DNA from: Alphaproteobacteria bacterium
GTDB taxonomy: Bacteria > Pseudomonadota > Alphaproteobacteria > JAVJVX01
Direction: 5' to 3'
Length of the DNA: 64,000 nucleotides
Assembly: GCA_040220875.1 (NCBI GenBank)
Contig: JAVJVX010000007.1
Coordinates: 1 to 64,000 of the forward strand
The notes below the pieces were generated by a model that saw nothing but the letters and a program-made list of their open reading frames with translations, did not search any database and was not told where the DNA came from. This document shows, piece after piece, positions 53,583-63,657 of the stretch (its first letter is position 1; every line of letters starts with the position of its first letter). The position numbers and the translations under genes were made by a program.

Positions 53583-54095
53583 CTAGAGCGGTACGGCCAG
53601 CAGGTTTTGAATGGCGCCGGTATCCGCGATCACGCTACGCTCCTTGAACCGGGGTCCGTCACCATCCATCACGATGCGATCGAGATACCGGCCGACCGAG
53701 AAAATCCGCGTCTCGCCGTCCAGTGACGTCTGGGTCACCTGGTAGCTCGAATGGACGTGATAGACCTCGTTCTCCTCGGCCAGGACACGAATATTGGTGA
53801 CCAGATGGCGGGCGTAGTGCGGATTATAGATATTGGCTTCGCGCAAGGAGACCACACGATCGCGCAGCATGCCCTTGCTGTCGCAGAATACCACCGCCAT
53901 CGGGAGGTTCCCGTCATAGTTTTCGCGGCTCGTGATGCGATAGACGCAGTCATCGGTAAACAGGCCGACCCATTCCTCGAACTCCGAATCGTCGAGCAGG
54001 CGCGCCGCGTCGGCGATCAGCGTCTCGATCTGAAGCTGGCGCTCGGGAGAGACGTGGACCATCACCGGACGGATTTTGGTGGCCAGATCGCTCAT
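53583..54095 (-). CDS. Aromatic-ring-hydroxylating dioxygenase small (beta) subunit
   Basis: A 170-residue NTF2-like beta subunit. ARLLDDSEFEEWVGLFTDDC, RHLVTNIRVL and FSVGRYLDRIV follow the family pattern. It overlaps the large-subunit stop by 4 nt, giving a classical alpha3-beta3-type pair. No ferredoxin or reductase gene lies next to it. No clear terminator was found in the 136 nt before panD, although a T7 run (53521-53527, reverse strand) is present. Confidence 0.92.
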   Translation of the reverse strand: MSDLATKIRPVMVHVSPERQLQIETLIADAARLLDDSEFEEWVGLFTDDCVYRITSRENYDGNLPMAVVFCDSKGMLRDRVVSLREANIYNPHYARHLVTNIRVLAEENEVYHVHSSYQVTQTSLDGETRIFSVGRYLDRIVMDGDGPRFKERSVIADTGAIQNLLAVPL

Positions 54096-55399
54096 GCGCT
54101 GCCTCCCGCCGGGGCGTAGCCCATGAACCGCGCATACTCGCGCCACATGCCCCGGATCGGCACCTCGGTGACAAGGTGTGTCTGGGTTTCGATCGGGCCG
54201 TCCCCGCCCATGTCGAGAACGGACAGCTCGCGGCGGCCCTGTCCGGCCGCTTTTTGCACCAGCCGCGTGGCCTCGCCGTCCTCCATCGAGATGAATCCGG
54301 CCGGGCCGATCATGTTGGCCTGCTTGAGGCGGAACGAATCCATTTCCGCGTCATCGTCAGCATAGCCGAAATATGTCCAGTAAAGCTCGAACGCGTCGGG
54401 CCCCTTGGGAATGATTTTTCGAGTGGCCAGTGTGTTGGCGATTTGCTGGATGACGACGCTCGGGAACAAAAGAGTGATCAGGTTCGAAATGCCGTCCTCG
54501 AACTCGGGACGCCCCTTCATCAGGGACGGATCAGACAGTTTGAAGGCCGATTGATTCTCGCTGACGCCCTTGAAACTGGTCTCGTCATAGGCGTCTTTAA
54601 GCGTTGCCTTGTCGTCCGTCCCGGCCTTGGCGAACAGTGCCGAGTGGCGGCCCAGTTGGTCCAGCACGACGCCGCCCTTCTGGGTCGAGCGATAGGTTCC
54701 GAACGTTGCATGGAAAAGATGCAGCAGGCCCGCGTGATAGGGGTCCTTGGTGTTCTCGGCATAGAGTTTCCAGTTCGCCGGGATGGCCTGGCGCGCGTAG
54801 CCCAGCACCTTGAGGGGCTTGTAGAACACCCGGTCGACATAGGCGAGCACTTCCGGGCCGATGTAATCCGCGAACGGCTCGACCTCCTCGCTGAAGGTGC
54901 CGAAGATGCCCCCCTTGTGGCAGGCGACGCGGACGCGCTCGAGCCCGTGTTCCTTCAGATCGAAGCTCTTGGCCATTCCACCCTGGCCCTTGATCCCCCG
55001 CCGGTAGGGCACACCCTGAAGGTTGCCTTCCAGATCAAAGCTCCACTGATGATAGACACAGGTGTGCGTGTGGTCGTCCACGGTGCCGCGCAGCTTGCGG
55101 CACAGGACCGCGCCGCGATGGGTGCACTTGTTGAGAAACGCAGCGACCTCGCCGGCCTCGGTCCGGTTCACGATGATCGACGTATCGCCAATGAAGCTGA
55201 GGAAGAAATCCCCGGGATTGGGAATCTCGGCTTCGAGACCGATATAGGACCATGTGTGGCCCCGAAAGATCCGCGCTTGCTCGCGATCGTAAATTTCCTG
55301 GTCCGTGTAAACCCGATAAGGGACGCGGGAGTAGTCGCTTGCCGGCCAGACCAAATCAGCGCCGTGGACGCCGGTGGATGGCGTGGAATCGGGACACAT
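54092..55399 (-). CDS. Rieske dioxygenase large (alpha) subunit, salicylate/anthranilate type
   Basis: A 435-residue oxygenase. The Rieske 2Fe-2S ligands are Cys92/His94 (CTHRGAVLC) and Cys114/His117 (CVYHQW). The non-haem iron site uses His222 and His227, with bridging Asp219 (NTKDPYHAGLLH). The overall pattern resembles salicylate 5-hydroxylase and anthranilate dioxygenase alpha subunits. Start at 55399 is behind GGAGGAGG, a strong ribosome site; the upstream frame to 55447 is not needed. Substrate not assignable. Confidence 0.92.
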   Translation of the reverse strand: MCPDSTPSTGVHGADLVWPASDYSRVPYRVYTDQEIYDREQARIFRGHTWSYIGLEAEIPNPGDFFLSFIGDTSIIVNRTEAGEVAAFLNKCTHRGAVLCRKLRGTVDDHTHTCVYHQWSFDLEGNLQGVPYRRGIKGQGGMAKSFDLKEHGLERVRVACHKGGIFGTFSEEVEPFADYIGPEVLAYVDRVFYKPLKVLGYARQAIPANWKLYAENTKDPYHAGLLHLFHATFGTYRSTQKGGVVLDQLGRHSALFAKAGTDDKATLKDAYDETSFKGVSENQSAFKLSDPSLMKGRPEFEDGISNLITLLFPSVVIQQIANTLATRKIIPKGPDAFELYWTYFGYADDDAEMDSFRLKQANMIGPAGFISMEDGEATRLVQKAAGQGRRELSVLDMGGDGPIETQTHLVTEVPIRGMWREYARFMGYAPAGGSA

Positions 55400-55623
55400 T
55401 AGCTTTCCTCCTCCTTTTCGTGCCGTTACCCCGGCCCGGTCTGACATCTGCGAGGGGCCGTGGCCCGGTGGCCCAGCGTAACCCAGAATCCTTCCGTTGT
55501 CAGTCGCGCAACCGAAGTTCGCGCGACACCGGGCCGGCCCATTTGCCGGCGTACGGGACTCTTGGCGTCTCGGGCTGTTTTCCGCTAGGGTTTGGCCGCA
55601 TCAGGAGACAGACGGAGTTTGCC

Positions 55624-55866
55624 GTGCAGACCATTTTCGTATTGATCAAATGCGAACTGGGGAAGGCCTACGAGGTGGCCGACCAGACCGTGGAGAATGT
55701 GCCGGAGGTCTCCGAGGTGCACTCGGTCTCGGGCCAGTATGACCTGCTGGTGAAATGCGTCCTCGACAGCAAGGCCGATATCGGACATTTCGTCACCGAG
55801 AAGCTGCAGCCGCTGCCCGGAGTCAAGGACACGTTCACCATAATTGCCTTCAAGGCATTTACTTGA
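55624..55866 (+). CDS. Stand-alone Lrp/AsnC ligand-binding (RAM) domain protein
   Basis: An 80-residue protein consisting only of the Lrp/AsnC effector domain: LIKCELGKAYEVADQTVENV, VHSVSGQYDLLVKC and VKDTFTIIAFKAF. The DNA-binding helix-turn-helix of full Lrp proteins is absent. GTG start at 55624 gives exactly the domain. Such proteins form decamers or octamers that bind small effectors; here the partner is unknown. Its stop lies 8 nt inside the convergent TonB-like gene. Confidence 0.88.
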   Translation: MQTIFVLIKCELGKAYEVADQTVENVPEVSEVHSVSGQYDLLVKCVLDSKADIGHFVTEKLQPLPGVKDTFTIIAFKAFT

Positions 55867-56563
55867 GGCGAAAGACGACCGGAATCGAGACGCTCGCCGT
55901 CACCGGGACACCGTCGCGCCGACCGGGCAAGAACCGCCAATCCCTGACCGCTTCCATCGCCGCCTGATCGAGGGCGGCCACGCCGCTGCTCTGGACGATC
56001 TGCACGGCCGTGCTTGAACCGCTCGCCGTCACTTCAGCCTCCAGCACCACCCGGCCTTCCTGATTTCGGCGCCGCGCGCTCAGCGGATAATGGGGCTTGC
56101 GGTTATTGAGCTGCGCGGGCCGGTAGTCGGGCGCTGCGACAGCGGCCGCGCGTCCGGGGGAAACCCTGGCCGGCGGCACCGGCTCGCGTGGCTCGGCTCC
56201 CTGGGTCCCCGATGATACCGTGCCCGGCACTGGCGGCGGGGCGGGCGAGGGTACGGGTGGCCGGACGGTGGGCAAGGTTGCGAGTGAGGCTGTCGGACTC
56301 GCGAAAGGGGTGGCGCCGGCCCGCGCCGGATCGGCCGGGGGCTCGGCGTGCGACGGCGGCTGCGCCGGCTCGGCGCGCGACGCGGCGGGGGCAGGCAGAC
56401 CGGAGATTTCGACTTCGACCTGTCGGGTCTGGAATCGGGGCGCCTCGATTGCGCCCCATGCCAGCAGTCCCGCTACGGCAACGCTGTGGACGGCGAGTGA
56501 CCAGCCGCCGGCGGTAAGCCAGAGCGGGAGAGGGGGAGCAGCAGCGCGCGCCTTGTCGATCAT
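55859..56563 (-). CDS. TonB-family protein (energy transducer), B12 riboswitch-controlled
   Basis: A 234-residue protein: cytosolic Lys/Arg start, one membrane helix (about residues 16-36), a Pro/Ala-rich periplasmic linker (about 55-150) and a TonB C-terminal domain with NNRKPHYPLSARRRNQEGRV and SSGVAALDQAAMEAVRDWRF. The TonB box partner, exbB and exbD are not in the window. A cobalamin riboswitch lies upstream, so it probably energises a B12/cobinamide outer-membrane receptor encoded elsewhere. Confidence 0.88.
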   Translation of the reverse strand: MIDKARAAAPPLPLWLTAGGWSLAVHSVAVAGLLAWGAIEAPRFQTRQVEVEISGLPAPAASRAEPAQPPSHAEPPADPARAGATPFASPTASLATLPTVRPPVPSPAPPPVPGTVSSGTQGAEPREPVPPARVSPGRAAAVAAPDYRPAQLNNRKPHYPLSARRRNQEGRVVLEAEVTASGSSTAVQIVQSSGVAALDQAAMEAVRDWRFLPGRRDGVPVTASVSIPVVFRLK

Positions 56564-56633
56564 ACGTCCGCAATCCGGGGCCGGGTCTGGTCTGGCGTCA
56601 AGATCTCTCGACACCTTCGCGTGAGCCTGAACC

Positions 56634-56691
56634 GCGTCATCCGGACGGATGGACCGCACCCCGGACCGCCTCGCCCCGGAGTGGATGACGC
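56634..56691 (-). promoter_or_regulatory. Inverted repeat in the riboswitch expression platform
   Basis: GCGTCATCC (56634-56642) and GGATGACGC (56683-56691) form a perfect 9-bp stem around a 40-nt GC-rich loop in the RNA between aptamer and start codon. It starts 3 nt after the aptamer and could be the switching stem. There is no U tract, so simple intrinsic termination is unlikely. Confidence 0.5.
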
Positions 56692-56694
56692 TGT

Positions 56695-56901
56695 CGATGG
56701 CAGGTCTCCTGACTCCCGGGTCGCGGCCTCTGCACCCACCTTCCCAGGACGCTGCCGTCCCAGTGGCTTCATCGATGCGGCTCGCCGGTCACAGTTGCGA
56801 GGGCAGTCCCGGAATCTGCCGGCGCGGGTTGCCGCGCAGGCACCACCGGATTCCCTTTTCCCTACCGCGCGCCACGTCCGGCGTCTGGTAGAAGACCATC
56901 G
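56695..56901 (-). promoter_or_regulatory. Cobalamin (B12) riboswitch
   Basis: Read on the reverse strand, the conserved elements appear in order: GAAAAGGGAATCCGGTG (about 56845-56861), CTGCCCTCGCAACTGTGACC (56787-56806), GCCACTGG (56760-56767), CTGGGAAGG, and the B12 box GTCAGGAGACCTGCC (56699-56713). The ends CGATGG (56901-56896) and CCATCG (56700-56695) close as a P1 stem. It precedes the TonB-like gene by 131 nt and should lower expression when adenosylcobalamin or another cobalamin is abundant. Confidence 0.95.
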
Positions 56902-57097
56902 GCAGGCGAGAGCTTAATAAGGCCTTCGCCCGCGAACAAGCGCTCGTGTGTCGTCAGGCCCCTCCCGGCTCGGGCTTTTCCTTCCGGCGGGCAGAAGAGC
57001 TTGGCCTTCCGGCGGCCTGCTTGCTACAACTCACCGGAAATAAAGCTAGACGGCCGGTCGGGGGCGGCGGGCCGGCAGATCCCCGGGAGGTAATCGC

Positions 57098-57847
57098 ATG
57101 GCCAACAAGAAACGCGTCAAGATCATTTTCCCCGTGCCACTGAACGAACACACGCGGGGCATGGTCGAGCCGCAGATTCCGCCCGAAATGGTGCGGCCGG
57201 AATTCGAGATCGAGTTCGTCGGCTCAAAGGGCCTGATGTCTCTGGCCAGCAGCTACTACGATATGCTGATCATGGAGATGATCGTGTTCGAGGCCGGGCT
57301 TAAATCGGAAGAAGAAGGCTTTGATTGCGTGTGCATCAATACGGTCAGCGATTCCGCGCTGGCCGCCCTGCGTTCGCGCCTGACAATTCCCGTGATCGGC
57401 CCCGGCCAGTCCGCCTTCCACACGGCGGCGATGCTGGGCAAGAAGTTTTCGATCATCTCGATGTGGGATGAATGGTTCCCGATGTATCGAAAATCGCTGC
57501 GTGAGTACGGACTTGAGGACAAGGTCGCCTCGCTACGCTCGATCAATACGCGCCCGGACGTGCAGGAATTGCTGGCCGGCAAGGAGGAAATCGTTTTCGG
57601 CAAGCTCGAGGAGCAGGCGCGCAAGGCGATCGATGAGGATGGAGCCGACGTGATCGTGCTGGGCTCGACCACCATGCATCAGTCTCACAAATACCTGTCC
57701 GAGAAGCTGCCGGTGCCGGTCATCAATCCTGGCCAGATTGCCTACAAGCTCTGCGAGGTTTTCCTCGAGCTTGGGCTCTCGCATTCCAAGAAGGCGTTTC
57801 CGACGCCGGAAAAGCCGCAGGACGACCATATTTTTGCGCCGCGATAA
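57098..57847 (+). CDS. Aspartate/glutamate/hydantoin racemase-family protein
   Basis: A 249-residue Asp/Glu racemase fold protein. The first half has DCVCINTVSDSALAALRSRL, with Cys79 in the catalytic position. In the second half the usual LGCxG is replaced by LGSTTMHQ, so the second catalytic Cys is Ser190 and classic two-base racemisation is doubtful. ATG at 57098 has GGGAGGT upstream. It opens the forward cluster that holds SDR, Rieske and flavin reductase genes. Confidence 0.85.
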   Translation: MANKKRVKIIFPVPLNEHTRGMVEPQIPPEMVRPEFEIEFVGSKGLMSLASSYYDMLIMEMIVFEAGLKSEEEGFDCVCINTVSDSALAALRSRLTIPVIGPGQSAFHTAAMLGKKFSIISMWDEWFPMYRKSLREYGLEDKVASLRSINTRPDVQELLAGKEEIVFGKLEEQARKAIDEDGADVIVLGSTTMHQSHKYLSEKLPVPVINPGQIAYKLCEVFLELGLSHSKKAFPTPEKPQDDHIFAPR

Positions 57848-57928: not shown

Positions 57929-58663
57929 ATGGAAATCAAGGGCGCGGTCGCGCTGGTCACCGGCGCGAATGGAGGATTGGGGACCGCTTTTGTCCGGGGC
58001 CTGCTGAAGGCGGGCGCGAAACACGTCTATGCAGCGGCGCGCGATCCCGGTGCGCTGTCGGGCCTCGCCTCGGAATTTGACGATCGCATCACGACCGTTC
58101 GCCTCGACATCAACGACCCGGCGCAGGCCGCCGGCGCCGCCAGTCAGTGTTCGGATCTGAGCCTGCTGGTGAACAACGCCGGCGCAAATCTGTATGCCGG
58201 GGTGCTCGCGGATAACGCCATCGACGCCGCCCGGACCGAGATCGAGACCAACTTTTTCGGGACGCTGAACATGTGCCGCACCTTCGCGCCGGTTCTCGCC
58301 GGCAACGGCGGCGGTGGCATCATCAACATCCTGAGCATCGCCGGAATCGGCAGTTTCCCGATGATGGGCACGTATTCAGCCTCGAAGGCGGCGCAGCTTT
58401 CGCTGACGCAAAGTGTGCGGGCCGACCTGAAGGGGCAGGGCACGCGGGTCTATGCCGTGCTGCCGGCCGCGATCGACACGCCGCTGACGGCAAATTACGA
58501 GGGACCGAAGGACCCGCCCGAGGGGGTGGTCGCCGATACCCTTGCAGGTGTGATGAAGGACGAAGCCTATATCTGGCCGGTGAGTGCAGCCCATTTCCGG
58601 GACGTCGTCGGCACCGGCGGCTGGGACCTTGCCGATCAACTCGCCGCCTTTTCCGAGCAGTGA
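57929..58663 (+). CDS. Short-chain dehydrogenase/reductase
   Basis: A 244-residue SDR. The cofactor motif TGANGGLG (residues 11-18), NNAGAN, and the catalytic Ser136 (NILSIAG), Tyr149 and Lys153 (YSASK) are all present. Such enzymes oxidise alcohols to ketones, or reduce them, with NAD(P)H. In context it may act on an alcohol or ketone intermediate made by the neighbouring Rieske oxygenases. Substrate not assignable. Confidence 0.92.
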   Translation: MEIKGAVALVTGANGGLGTAFVRGLLKAGAKHVYAAARDPGALSGLASEFDDRITTVRLDINDPAQAAGAASQCSDLSLLVNNAGANLYAGVLADNAIDAARTEIETNFFGTLNMCRTFAPVLAGNGGGGIINILSIAGIGSFPMMGTYSASKAAQLSLTQSVRADLKGQGTRVYAVLPAAIDTPLTANYEGPKDPPEGVVADTLAGVMKDEAYIWPVSAAHFRDVVGTGGWDLADQLAAFSEQ

Positions 58664-58965: not shown

Positions 58966-60225
58966 ATGACCGACGTGAAAAATCCGTCCGTTGAAGAGAA
59001 ATCGTTACACAGGTGGCACGACAAGTTCCCGGAGACAGGCACGGGTCCGATCGACGCCAGCACCTGCAGCTCGCCGGAATATTTCGAGCTCGAGCGCAAG
59101 CACATCTTCGAGAAGGTCTGGTGGAAAGTCGGCCGGGTCGAGGAAATCCCCAAGCCGGGCGACTTCAAGGTCAAGAAAATTTACTGGGCCAATACCTCGA
59201 TCATCCTGGTTCGGGGCAAGGACGACCAGATCCGCGCCTTCTATAACGTTTGCGAGCACCGCGGAAACACCGTGATCTCGGAAATTCCGGGCCAGCACGA
59301 GTTTTACGGCCGCGCGCGCGGCCATGCCATGACGTGCCGGTTCCATGGCTGGGTGTACAGCACGAAGGGCGAGCTGCTTCACATCCCGGCCAAGGAAAAG
59401 TTCTTCGACAGCTTCGAGGAAGTGGCGAAGGAAGAAGGCCACGGCCTGGTGCCCTTGCCCTGCGAGACCTGGGAAGGCTTTATCTTCATCAACTTCATGG
59501 AAAAGCCGCTCTGGGATCTCGAAACATTTCTCGGCGGCTACGGCAAGTTCCTGTCGGGTTATGCGTATGGCGCGGCGACGCGGCAGTTCAAGTACTACAC
59601 GATGCTGGATGCGAACTGGAAAGTCTGCCTGGATGCCTTCCAGGAAGGCTATCACGTCGACACGATCCACGCCGGCTCGTTCCCGTGTGACTGGTGCGGG
59701 ATCGAGAACATCCAGCTCTTCGGACCGCATCGGACATCGTCCATCACCTTCAACATGGACTCGATCAGCCTCGGCCCCGTGCAGGCGATGAGTTTCCAGA
59801 AAAGTAACTCGTCAATCGTTGATGCGAGCCGCGGGCGCACGATGCTGCCGAAGCAGTTCAATCCCGATGACGATCCCGCCTGGGCGTTCGAGCTGGGCAC
59901 GATTTTCCCCTGCTTCATGCCCCACCCGGCGGAAGGCTTCTACTTCACCCACCAGTTCTGGCCCGTTGCCCATAACAAGTGCCTGTGGGAGGGCACGCAG
60001 TATATGGTGACGCCGGAAAAGAACAGCGAGCGGTGGTCGATGGAATACTCGCAGGTTCTGCAGCGCAACGCCTGGCTGGAAGACACTCAGACGATGGAGG
60101 ATACGCACCGCGCCATCGAAAGCGGCCGGCGCAAGTATCTTCACCTGCAGGATGACGAGATTCTCATCCGGCACGGCTACAAGGTGGTGCAGGACTGGAT
60201 CGACGGTAAAATCGAGCTTGGCTGA
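58966..60225 (+). CDS. Rieske oxygenase alpha subunit, module 1
   Basis: A 419-residue Rieske non-haem iron oxygenase. The 2Fe-2S ligands are Cys96/His98 (CEHRGN) and Cys124/His127 (CRFHGW). The iron site has His230 and His235 in QEGYHVDTIHAG, with Glu227 where the naphthalene dioxygenase bridging Asp stands. AAGGAGG precedes the ATG, a strong ribosome site. A 112-residue partner gene follows after 51 nt. No standard beta subunit, ferredoxin or reductase is adjacent. Substrate unknown. Confidence 0.93.
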   Translation: MTDVKNPSVEEKSLHRWHDKFPETGTGPIDASTCSSPEYFELERKHIFEKVWWKVGRVEEIPKPGDFKVKKIYWANTSIILVRGKDDQIRAFYNVCEHRGNTVISEIPGQHEFYGRARGHAMTCRFHGWVYSTKGELLHIPAKEKFFDSFEEVAKEEGHGLVPLPCETWEGFIFINFMEKPLWDLETFLGGYGKFLSGYAYGAATRQFKYYTMLDANWKVCLDAFQEGYHVDTIHAGSFPCDWCGIENIQLFGPHRTSSITFNMDSISLGPVQAMSFQKSNSSIVDASRGRTMLPKQFNPDDDPAWAFELGTIFPCFMPHPAEGFYFTHQFWPVAHNKCLWEGTQYMVTPEKNSERWSMEYSQVLQRNAWLEDTQTMEDTHRAIESGRRKYLHLQDDEILIRHGYKVVQDWIDGKIELG

Positions 60226-60276
60226 GCCGGTCCCGGCCAGACAACGGGACGATCATGCCACCAGAGGGAGGTTGAA

Positions 60277-60615
60277 ATGGCGAAGCTGCCAAAAGGTTTC
60301 GAGAAGCTTGAGCCCCTTTCCGAGAAATGGGCACTGGCAACGCAGAATGAGCGACAGAAGGTTCGCCGGGAATCGACGACAGAGGAATTGCAGGCATTTT
60401 ACGACGCCATGATGCCGCGGCTCGAAGACGCGCTCGACAAGGCGGACGAGTATCCGCTAGGCGAGATGCCCGAGGACGTGGAACAGCTGTTCTTCATGAC
60501 CCTGTCGCTCGCCGAGGTGGCGCCCCATATCGAACTTTATGGCGGCAATCCCGAGGTTCCCTACTCCTTCGAGGAAAGCCGGTTTGTCGCGGTACACGGC
60601 AACGACCGCGGCTGA
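60277..60615 (+). CDS. 112-residue Rieske-associated protein, copy 1 (unknown family)
   Basis: I do not recognise the family. It has no cysteine, no signal peptide and no membrane helix; it is acidic overall and looks mostly helical. FYDAMMPRLEDAL begins at residue 41 and AEVAPHIELYGG at 79-90, both shared with copy 2 at 62000. From residue 41 to the end the two copies share about 37 of 72 positions, ungapped, by my own count. GGGAGG ribosome site. It lies 51 nt after the Rieske alpha gene and before a terminator, so it is probably part of that oxygenase. Confidence 0.88.
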   Translation: MAKLPKGFEKLEPLSEKWALATQNERQKVRRESTTEELQAFYDAMMPRLEDALDKADEYPLGEMPEDVEQLFFMTLSLAEVAPHIELYGGNPEVPYSFEESRFVAVHGNDRG

Positions 60616-60637
60616 GCCTGCCGGACCCGAGTTGACG

Positions 60638-60672
60638 GCCCCGCCCGCTGCGGCGGGGCTGTCTGCATTTTA
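60638..60672 (+). terminator. Rho-independent terminator between the two Rieske modules
   Basis: GCCCCGCC (60638-60645) and GGCGGGGC (60652-60659) form a perfect 8-bp stem around a CGCTGC loop, followed by TGTCTGCATTTT. It lies 22 nt past the first small gene and 73 nt before the second Rieske gene, so the second module may have its own promoter. Confidence 0.75.
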
Positions 60673-60744
60673 AGCTCCCGTGACGAACGCGTTCGAGAGA
60701 GTTATCCTGACCCGGCCTGCGAGGATATCACCAAGGGGGGCGAG

Positions 60745-61989
60745 ATGACGTCAGAGACAGCCGCTGAGAACCGTCCCGGACACAAATGGACGAGCCGGTA
60801 CCCTGAACTCGGGACCGGACCCATTCCGGTGGAACCTCTCATCTCGGAAGAGCTTTTCGAGGAGGAGCGCGAAAAGATTTTCCGCCATGCCTGGCTGTAT
60901 ATGGGCCGGGTGGAGCAAATTCCCGAGCCGGGCGACTACAAACTCCGCCGGGTAGACGTTCTCAAGACTTCCCTGATCATCGTTCGGGACAAGGCCGGGA
61001 AGATCCGGGCCTTTCACAACATCTGCACCCATCGCGGCAACAAGGTGGTGCCCGAAAAAGGGGATTTCGAAAGTTTCGGGCGGGCACGCGGTAACGCGCT
61101 GACATGCCGGTTTCACGGCTGGGTCTTTGGTACCGACGGTGACCTTCGCCACGTGCCGAAAGAGGATCTGTTCCCCGACTTGGACAAGGCCTGCCGCGGC
61201 CTCAAAGAGGTCGCCTGCGAGACCTGGGAAGGCTTCATCTTCGTTAATCTGGAGGACAGGCCCAAACAGTCGCTCACCGAGTTTCTGGGCGGCATGGGAC
61301 ACCATTTCGCCGGGTATCCCTATGGCGAAGCAACCTGTTCCAAGCAGTATTATTCGGTGCTCCACTGCAACTGGAAAGTGTCACTCTACGCCTTTACCGA
61401 GGCCTATCACGTCCCCACCATCCATGCCGGCACTTTTCCCAGCCTGGCGCGAGTGGAACATGAGAATTTCCGGTTTTTTGGCCCGCACCGCACTTCGGCC
61501 ATTCATGTCCCACCGGTACCGGGGCTGGAGCCCACTCCGGTGACCGCTATTGCGGCCGGGATCCTGCACGCCAGCGACCGCCATCGCCCCCATCCCGAGC
61601 AATTGCCGAAATCGATCAACCCCGACCAGCGCGGAGACTTCCAGTTTGAATTGCCGGTGACTTTTCCGAACCTGGGAATTCACCTCGGCGCCGGAAACGG
61701 GTATCCGGGCATGGCCTTTTTTACGCACGAATTCTGGCCGATCGCTCATGACCGCACGCTCTGGATCGGCACCAATTATTTTCGAGAGCCGCGGACGGTA
61801 AGCGAAAAATTCGCCTTGCAGCACGTCAACGCCTTGCATCGCAATGCCTGGCTTGAAGACACCTGGACGATGGAAGACTCGCAGGACGCGATGAAATCAG
61901 GCGTGCTGGAAGAACTCGTGCTACAGGATGAGGAAATCATGATCCGTCACGCCAACAAGGTCTGGCATGACTATATGGGCCGTGGTTAG
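60745..61989 (+). CDS. Rieske oxygenase alpha subunit, module 2
   Basis: A 414-residue homologue of the module 1 subunit. Ligands are Cys94/His96 (CTHRGN), Cys121/His124 (CRFHGW), and His222/His227 in TEAYHVPTIHAG with Glu219 at the bridging position. It shares GRARG before the second Rieske cysteine, and TWEGFIF. The C-terminal part differs more, suggesting another substrate. GGGGG before the ATG; the 112-residue partner begins 10 nt after its stop. Confidence 0.93.
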   Translation: MTSETAAENRPGHKWTSRYPELGTGPIPVEPLISEELFEEEREKIFRHAWLYMGRVEQIPEPGDYKLRRVDVLKTSLIIVRDKAGKIRAFHNICTHRGNKVVPEKGDFESFGRARGNALTCRFHGWVFGTDGDLRHVPKEDLFPDLDKACRGLKEVACETWEGFIFVNLEDRPKQSLTEFLGGMGHHFAGYPYGEATCSKQYYSVLHCNWKVSLYAFTEAYHVPTIHAGTFPSLARVEHENFRFFGPHRTSAIHVPPVPGLEPTPVTAIAAGILHASDRHRPHPEQLPKSINPDQRGDFQFELPVTFPNLGIHLGAGNGYPGMAFFTHEFWPIAHDRTLWIGTNYFREPRTVSEKFALQHVNALHRNAWLEDTWTMEDSQDAMKSGVLEELVLQDEEIMIRHANKVWHDYMGRG

Positions 61990-61999
61990 GGAGGCGGGG

Positions 62000-62338
62000 A
62001 TGAGTGCGCTGCCGCCAGCTTACGACGATCTTGAGCCCTTCGTGCCGGTCTGGGCCCATCCGACGGAAAACGAACGCTCCCGCCGCCGCTGGGCCGCAGC
62101 GCCCGAGGATTTTCAGCAGTTTTATGACGCCATGCTGCCCCGGATCGAGGCGATCCTGACGGATCTCGACCGGCACGACCTGAACGACCTACCCGAATCT
62201 GCCCGACCACTCTATTACCTGGCCCTCGCCTTCGCCGAGGTCGCCCCCCATATCGAGCTCTACGGCGGAAGCGCCGAAGTGCCCAACAGCTTTCTCGCCA
62301 GCCGCGTCATCGCCGGTCACGGGGACCGCGAAGATTGA
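62000..62338 (+). CDS. 112-residue Rieske-associated protein, copy 2 (unknown family)
   Basis: Same length (112) as copy 1 at 60277 and clearly homologous: FYDAMLPRIEAIL at residue 41 and AEVAPHIELYGG at 79-90 are in identical positions, followed by EVPNSFLASR and the closing GHG. It has no cysteine. The ATG at 62000 has GGGAGGCGGGG upstream and fits copy 1 in length; an in-frame extension to 61967 would overlap the Rieske gene and is rejected. Confidence 0.87.
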   Translation: MSALPPAYDDLEPFVPVWAHPTENERSRRRWAAAPEDFQQFYDAMLPRIEAILTDLDRHDLNDLPESARPLYYLALAFAEVAPHIELYGGSAEVPNSFLASRVIAGHGDRED

Positions 62339-62501
62339 GGCAACGACCCTGAAAACGGGTCCGGCTGTTGGTCCGGAGTGGGTGGGGGCCTGTATTTTCC
62401 CGGCCATGCCGGATAGTCTCGAACCAGCGAGCGCCGCGCGGCGGTGGCCGGCGCCCGTCGCAAAACGCACCATTGTCACCGGGGATGAGGAAGGGGAAAC
62501 C

Positions 62502-62981
62502 ATGTCGGCCGATTTGGAAAAGCGGATCCAGCGCCTCGAGGATATCGAGGAAATCAAGAAAATGATCGCGCGCTACGCGCAGGCGGGGGACGATAAAAAT
62601 AATCCCGACATATTTGGACCGATGATTACCGAGGACGCGATCTGGGAAGCGGAGGGATTCGGCCAGCACAAGGGCCGCGACGTGATCACCAAGGTCCTTT
62701 CGGAAGTCGCGCAGGAAAAGATTCTATGGGCGCTACATTTCATGACCTCGCCCCTGATCGATATCGCCGAGGACGGCAAGACCGCGACGGCCATGTGGTA
62801 TCTTTGGGAGACCGCCATTGCCCGGGATGACAGGGAGGCCGAGGGAAAATCGACCTGGATCGGCGGCTGGTACGAAACCGATCTGCGCCGGGAAGCTGAT
62901 GGGAAATGGCGCTGGAACCATATCCGGCTGATGCTCAAGCTGTTCAGTCCCAATGAAAAGCCCGAATGGGACATTCTCTAA
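62502..62981 (+). CDS. SnoaL-like (NTF2-fold) protein
   Basis: A 159-residue NTF2-fold protein of the SnoaL_4 type: LEDIEEIKKMIARYAQAGDD starts the first helix, with ITEDAIWEAEGFGQHKGRDV and the closing WRWNHIRLMLKLFSP. This is the fold of the beta subunits of ring-hydroxylating dioxygenases, but the sequence is closer to stand-alone SnoaL members. It could be a beta-like partner, a hydratase or an isomerase. GGGGAAAC upstream of the ATG at 62502. Confidence 0.87.
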   Translation: MSADLEKRIQRLEDIEEIKKMIARYAQAGDDKNNPDIFGPMITEDAIWEAEGFGQHKGRDVITKVLSEVAQEKILWALHFMTSPLIDIAEDGKTATAMWYLWETAIARDDREAEGKSTWIGGWYETDLRREADGKWRWNHIRLMLKLFSPNEKPEWDIL

Positions 62982-63138: not shown

Positions 63139-63657
63139 ATGGCTGTTTTTGACGTTGAATGGAAGGAAGAGGACGGGCCGCTCAATTCGCGGGATTTAAG
63201 GCACGGTTTTGGTGCCTTCGCGACCGGTGTCACGATCGTCACGGCCCGCTCGGAAGATGGCGTGCCGGTTGGCTGCACGGCCAATTCCTTTAGTTCCGTG
63301 TCCGTAGACCCTCCCCTTCTTCTCTGGAACATCGCTGAAAGCGCGCAAAGCTATCAGGCCTATCGCGAGGCCCGGCATTTTGGCGTCAACATCCTGGCTC
63401 GGGACCAGATGGAGCTGGCCATGCGGTTCGCCACGCCGGAAGTGGATAAATTCGCCGACGGCACCTGGACTGACGGGCTGGCGGGTGTGCCGATCCTTGA
63501 CGGCGCCCTGGCGCATTTCGAGTGCTCGACCGAGGCGATCTACCCCGGGGGCGACCATGCGATCGTTCTGGGTCGCATTCACCGCTTCCGCTGGAGTGAC
63601 GGCCAGCCGCTCCTGTTCTATCGCGGCAAGTTCCCGCAATTGGCGACAGAAGATTGA
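63139..63657 (+). CDS. Flavin reductase family protein
   Basis: A 172-residue FMN-binding split-barrel flavin reductase: LRHGFGAFATGVTIVTA, GCTANSFSSVSVDPPLLLWN, and HFECSTEAIYPGGDHAIVLG are diagnostic. Such enzymes make reduced FMN with NAD(P)H for partner monooxygenases. In this cluster it might feed electrons to a flavin-using partner such as the LLM enzyme, or act independently. Rieske enzymes normally use ferredoxin or flavodoxin-type reductases, so direct support to the Rieske proteins is uncertain. Confidence 0.92.
   Translation: MAVFDVEWKEEDGPLNSRDLRHGFGAFATGVTIVTARSEDGVPVGCTANSFSSVSVDPPLLLWNIAESAQSYQAYREARHFGVNILARDQMELAMRFATPEVDKFADGTWTDGLAGVPILDGALAHFECSTEAIYPGGDHAIVLGRIHRFRWSDGQPLLFYRGKFPQLATED

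Follow-up and report, generated by a model that had tools for sequence, protein, structure and literature searches.

A small all-helical protein family linked to one clade of Rieske oxygenases, and its probable role as a dedicated subunit

We analysed a window of 64,000 nucleotides (positions 1 to 64,000 of contig JAVJVX010000007.1, from an alphaproteobacterial assembly), which contains two genes for Rieske oxygenase alpha subunits (alpha1 and alpha2), each with a gene for a 112-residue protein (small1 and small2) next to it downstream. Each of these pairs probably encodes one Rieske non-heme-iron oxygenase, in which a CntA-like alpha is joined by a stoichiometric small subunit that is dedicated to it, is all-helical and non-redox, and belongs to an undescribed family. 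The arrangement was picked up in an earlier reading made without database searches (the sequence-only reading), whose coordinates for the four genes we confirm.

The two pairs and the linkage of the small gene to Rieske alphas

Alpha1 (58966..60225, + strand, 419 residues) matches the Pfam families Rieske (1.3e-14) and Ring_hydroxyl_A (1.2e-25), as does alpha2 (60745..61989, +, 414 residues; 1.9e-17 and 2e-23), and both share 46% identity over 417 columns. In alpha1 the Rieske ligands are C96/H98/C124/H127, the bridging Glu is E227 and the iron ligands are H230, H235 and D373. Across the 98 small-linked alphas aligned, C96, H98, C124, H230 and D373 are present in all, and H127, E227 and H235 in 97 each. 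The small-linked alphas carry both the Rieske CxH...CxxH motif of a [2Fe-2S] cluster and a 2-His-1-carboxylate site.

Small1 (60277..60615, +) is preceded by the Shine-Dalgarno sequence AGGGAGG (60265..60271, +), read from the sequence 5 nt 5′ of its start; the gene is supported by the family profile, by its adjacency to alpha1 and by a confident structural model. For small2 (62000..62338, +, 112 residues) a longer frame is possible from the ATG at 61967, overlapping alpha2. We favour the start at 62000 because it agrees with the family alignment and because an AGGGAGG (61988..61994, +), which overlaps the alpha2 stop codon, lies 5 nt upstream, as in small1. BLASTP aligns the two small proteins without gaps over 109 positions with 52 identities (48%, E 2e-38), consistent with the 37 of 72 counted by hand in the sequence-only reading. 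FYDAM at residue 41 and AEVAPHIELYGG at residues 79-90 occupy equal positions in both, and neither protein contains Cys, as had been noted; 56 of 98 homologues are also Cys-free. In the 98 pairs W18 and R26 of the small protein are invariant, and R30, F41, Y42, L71, E80 and E86 nearly so. Across these homologues we looked for conserved Cys, His or cofactor ligands and found none, and the alignment holds no conserved residues of catalytic type.

Profile searches gave no match to the small proteins in Pfam or NCBIfam, and only chance-level matches in PHROGs, PADLOC and PDB profiles. There is no match to Ring_hydroxyl_B, SnoaL or GST profiles, and the Cys and His ligands of a ferredoxin are lacking. 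The proposal that the small protein is neither a ferredoxin nor an ordinary beta subunit is borne out by these results and by its all-helical model, and the proposal that its family is undescribed by its absence from the curated libraries. Public records label it 'hypothetical protein', and the alphas of the clade are annotated without a small partner.

The sequence-only reading had tied the small protein to this type of Rieske oxygenase, as a subunit or chaperone specific to it, an idea to be abandoned if its homologues lay mostly away from Rieske genes. A genome collection was scanned with the small protein alone, using a narrower alignment biased towards the AEVAPH subgroup. The opposite is seen: in 68 of the 68 loci recovered, a Rieske alpha stands beside the small gene on the same strand, and the idea of a dedicated partner is supported. 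These loci span Alpha-, Beta- and Gammaproteobacteria, Acidimicrobiia, Mycobacterium, other Actinomycetes and 'Deltaproteobacteria' (Myxococcota in the tree labels). When pairs from all sources are considered (n=105), the gap between both genes ranges from -8 to +167 nt with a median of 11; it falls between -8 and +30 nt in 97 of them, and the genes overlap in 27. The alpha precedes the small gene in 89 pairs and follows it in 16. The small protein is the sole constant neighbour of alpha, since pathway genes, ferredoxins and reductases differ between loci; the electron donors encoded nearby may be a Rieske ferredoxin, a PDR/VanB-type protein or a Fer2/FAD reductase.

The source genome (2.54 Mb in nine contigs) encodes 23 Rieske alphas and ten small genes, all ten of which adjoin an alpha. 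With 23 alphas in 2.54 Mb, we calculate a chance adjacency of ~0.015 per gene, and of ~1e-18 for ten. Adjacency of all ten copies to a Rieske alpha shows that the association is not due to chance. Only 1 of 57 genomes of the same class and 1 of 396 other Pseudomonadota genomes contain the family, which makes ten copies in one genome unusual. Together, the 23 alphas and ten small-partner genes form an unusually dense Rieske repertoire for 2.54 Mb. Among the genomes compared, the lineage has relatives at class level only.

A search of plasmids (tblastn) yielded 24 records with a small gene, 17 of which were examined. Apart from two lin plasmids and one Cupriavidus plasmid, these have the small gene next to an alpha that is full-length or still recognisable. 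In the lin plasmids pISP4 and pMI1, from gamma-hexachlorocyclohexane degraders, the cluster is broken up by copies of IS6100, which separate the small gene from a partial alpha close by; this small gene is possibly an orphaned relic within the lin region. On both plasmids its neighbours are linC and an EthD gene (L012:4968-5327 and L119:4968-5330, respectively). The C. necator plasmid locus (L116) is only seemingly devoid of alpha, as 28 C-terminal alpha residues remain just upstream of the small gene. The exceptions to the linkage carry broken or displaced alphas. On plasmid pRSMS1 of Sphingobium sp. RSMS (L118:299-6992), alpha and small stand alone between two copies of ISRsp3 (IS21), an apparent composite mobile unit. 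An open frame at L134:109-1740 (-) was considered as a natural alpha-small fusion and rejected: it joins the first half of a small protein to ~55 residues of a Rieske domain and to an unrelated protein, all in one frame, and is a degenerate remnant of a decayed small-alpha pair.

Correlated evolution of alphas and small proteins

In a tree of alphas obtained by quick search, with support given by the Shimodaira-Hasegawa-like approximate likelihood ratio test (SH-aLRT), the small-linked alphas form one clade (SH-aLRT 98). Within it, 46 of 48 rows are small-linked, and the other two are source-genome alphas at loci L128 and L129. The clade excludes four beta-type and six further alphas from the source genome, along with one alpha of locus L032. 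This last locus (L032:5793-8671, at ~714.3-717.2 kb of G000:C5 in the source genome) is arranged alpha - small - alpha, with only one of its alphas in the small-linked clade.

The two pairs of the window are not sisters: alpha2 groups with alphas from Sphingomonadales (SH-aLRT 100) and alpha1 with a different source-genome alpha (SH-aLRT 98). As they belong to separate groups, the pairing must be old and have been kept through paralogy. The sequence-only reading spoke of a pair retained after duplication; the duplication is not a recent one, and the two window pairs are ancient paralogues rather than products of recent tandem duplication.

We further compared the pairwise distances of alphas with those of their small proteins. 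They are correlated over 98 pairs (r = 0.91) and also within the ten paralogous pairs of the source genome (r = 0.76), a value reached in none of 5000 permutations; in this second comparison the phylogeny of the organisms plays no part.

Predicted structure and role of the small protein

An AlphaFold2 model of small1 built with 63 homologues reached a predicted local distance difference test score (pLDDT) of 92.6 and a predicted template modelling score (pTM) of 0.85. It shows four helices (residues 9-18, 23-32, 35-56 and 66-86) and an extended, conserved tail. Foldseek found no match to this model below E = 1 among PDB or viral structures; the best match to a GST had an E value of 7 and a template modelling score of 0.32, and the small protein does not have a GST fold. 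Alpha1 and small1 share one reading frame, separated by a single TGA, and we folded the read-through product as one chain. This version of the complex prediction suggested in the sequence-only reading gave a pLDDT of 90.2 and a pTM of 0.89, with the linker (418-437) below 50. By our own arithmetic, an undocked 112-residue domain in a chain of 549 residues (d0 ~8.3 Å) would yield a pTM of ~0.7-0.8. The value obtained is higher, and in the model the small protein is therefore docked firmly on alpha. The pLDDT of the small tail also rises, from 81-86 alone to 90-95 in the read-through model.

The reading that we favour is that of a subunit. Translation of both genes would be coupled, the small protein would then bind the alpha subunit, and its conserved C-terminal tail would, as the model predicts, gain order there. 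Once bound, it may stabilise or shape the assembled oxygenase, while electrons would be supplied by ordinary reductases or ferredoxins; substrates would differ between copies. A dedicated stoichiometric subunit is favoured because there is one small gene per alpha and the divergence of both is matched.

The same tight translational coupling and predicted binding to alpha, together with the small size of the protein and its lack of cofactor ligands, would also suit a dedicated assembly chaperone or maturation factor, which would bind nascent alpha during folding or during Fe-S or Fe insertion, and then leave, being absent from the mature enzyme. There is a precedent in NdmE, which has been termed a structural protein/chaperone and without whose complex NdmC, left alone, is insoluble (PMC10380055). 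We hold this to be the less likely of the two, as ten paralogues that each have their own alpha and diverge in step with it are better explained by a stoichiometric subunit, an argument that is not decisive.

Some points weigh against a subunit. The docking model is an artificial fusion of a single protomer, built from 75 rows that are nearly all unpaired and run with no negative control. Co-inherited linked genes yield some correlation of distances even without contact. Two source-genome alphas of the same clade (L128:4843-6117 and L129:3660-5234) lack a small gene next to them, and a PhyH-family gene comes after the first; a small protein supplied in trans may serve these alphas, or they may need none. 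Finally, the present data do not discriminate between a permanent subunit and a dedicated chaperone.

Comparison with known systems places the alphas close to the CntA/GbcA type of carnitine and glycine-betaine monooxygenases. The best PDB matches by sequence are 6y9c/6y8j (E ~4e-27) and the closest solved folds are chains of the carnitine monooxygenase CntA (Foldseek 6zgp/6y9d), to which the window alpha is ~22% identical in the structural alignment. The best NCBIfam match is GbcA, with scores of 93.7 and 109.8 bits against an equivalog cut-off of 670, and the window alphas are hence not GbcA. CntA has a Glu at the bridging position, like nearly all small-linked alphas. To our knowledge, neither CntA nor GbcA has a comparable small partner, and CntA is devoid of a beta subunit.

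This absence of beta lends some interest to a third reading, in which the small protein forms part of the binding site for a ferredoxin or reductase, the genes of which are often nearby: if CntA-like alphas lack beta, such a boundary could be provided by another protein. In alpha3beta3 enzymes the ferredoxin site is the alpha-beta boundary (PMC9361823). We find a docking adaptor of this kind improbable, given that the electron donors encoded nearby change while the small protein stays constant. Least probable is that the small protein acts on its own, as an enzyme or binding protein serving the following step of the pathway, and is tied to alpha through co-regulation only: Rieske genes do sit in catabolic clusters, and the lin-plasmid small gene does neighbour linC and an EthD gene, but pathway genes vary around the one constant small gene, catalytic-type residues are not conserved, the protein is predicted to dock on alpha, and the lin cluster is itself interrupted by IS6100 with a partial alpha nearby.

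As a subunit, the small protein would take the structural part that the NTF2-like beta plays in alpha3beta3 enzymes, or NdmE in NdmC-NdmD-NdmE. Beta subunits such as IadE and BphA2 are likewise small non-catalytic proteins encoded beside alpha, and IadE is regarded as a scaffold (PMC10374108). We asked whether IadE, from indole-3-acetate dioxygenase, might be a relative already described, and discarded it, since it is a seven-stranded NTF2-type beta (PMC10374108); the small protein, in contrast, is all-helical, has ~112 residues and matches neither Ring_hydroxyl_B nor SnoaL. NdmE is GST-like and non-catalytic, and one Rieske-type oxygenase depends on it to be soluble and to assemble, with a 3:3:3 ratio in the complex (PMC10380055). 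It belongs to the GST superfamily, whereas the small family has no GST match by profile or fold; moreover, NdmC lacks a Rieske domain and the small-linked alphas carry one. In the open-access literature, subscription journals being outside the scope of the search, we found no described accessory helical protein of Rieske oxygenases.

With this family, the accessory proteins of Rieske oxygenases would comprise three unrelated folds. Whether the pairs amount to a third Rieske architecture, in which a CntA-like alpha ring permanently carries a helical gamma-type subunit of unrelated fold in the structural role of beta, within an expanded clade of Proteobacteria, Myxococcota and Actinomycetota, is in our judgement evenly balanced. 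Once named, the family would serve as a genomic marker of the whole clade of oxygenases, and its protein as a subunit open to direct test. Should folding or activity depend on the partner, expression from alpha and electron donors alone would fail or mislead. The term 'two-component', used in the sequence-only reading, is not apt: redox ligands are absent from the small protein, and an ordinary Fer2/FAD/NAD reductase is encoded shortly after the downstream end of the window.

Gene context

Oxygenases of the clade are encoded within catabolic clusters, among them those for pollutants and for indole/skatole. The gene order in Acinetobacter and its relatives is acetamidase/formamidase - alpha - small - SnoaL_4 - styrene/indole monooxygenase - flavin reductase - SDR (short-chain dehydrogenase) - Rieske ferredoxin - reductase. 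At locus L010, counting from alpha (0) and with small at +1, the monooxygenase (+3), flavin reductase (+4) and ferredoxin (+6) match gene1684-1690 of A. piscicola p38, a likeness of gene order alone and not of p38 sequence. In that strain gene1684 (alpha) is induced by indole and skatole, and gene1687 (monooxygenase) and gene1690 (ferredoxin) by skatole; the study does not mention the small gene (gene1685 does not appear in it) and did not test the Rieske enzyme (PMC11434297). From context, our guess for the substrate of the window pairs is an aromatic or N-heterocyclic compound.

Upstream of alpha1, and likely in the same operon, lies a gene for an Asp/Glu racemase-family protein (57098..57847, +; Pfam Asp_Glu_race 5e-32), which is 54% identical to its counterpart beside the small and alpha genes of Novosphingobium; a short-chain dehydrogenase gene follows it (57929..58663, +; adh_short 7.4e-38). 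Downstream of small2 we found a SnoaL_4 (NTF2-fold) protein of 160 residues (62499..62981, +; SnoaL_4 2.7e-21). A homologue is present near 40 of the 68 related loci, making it a common but not invariant neighbour, and it was rejected as the true beta because it is not the constant partner. It is followed by a flavin reductase-like protein (63139..63657, +; Flavin_Reduct 2.2e-43) with a counterpart in the Acinetobacter cluster; directly beyond the window end, a glyoxalase-family gene accompanies the reductase gene mentioned above.

A conventional Rieske alpha/beta pair, with a Ring_hydroxyl_B beta, is encoded on the opposite strand ~3.5 kb upstream (53583-55447, -). Between this pair and the racemase-family gene, a cobalamin riboswitch (56682-56915, -; Rfam RF00174, 98.6 bits) stands directly upstream of an open reading frame (55859-56659, -) whose end looks TonB-like by eye.

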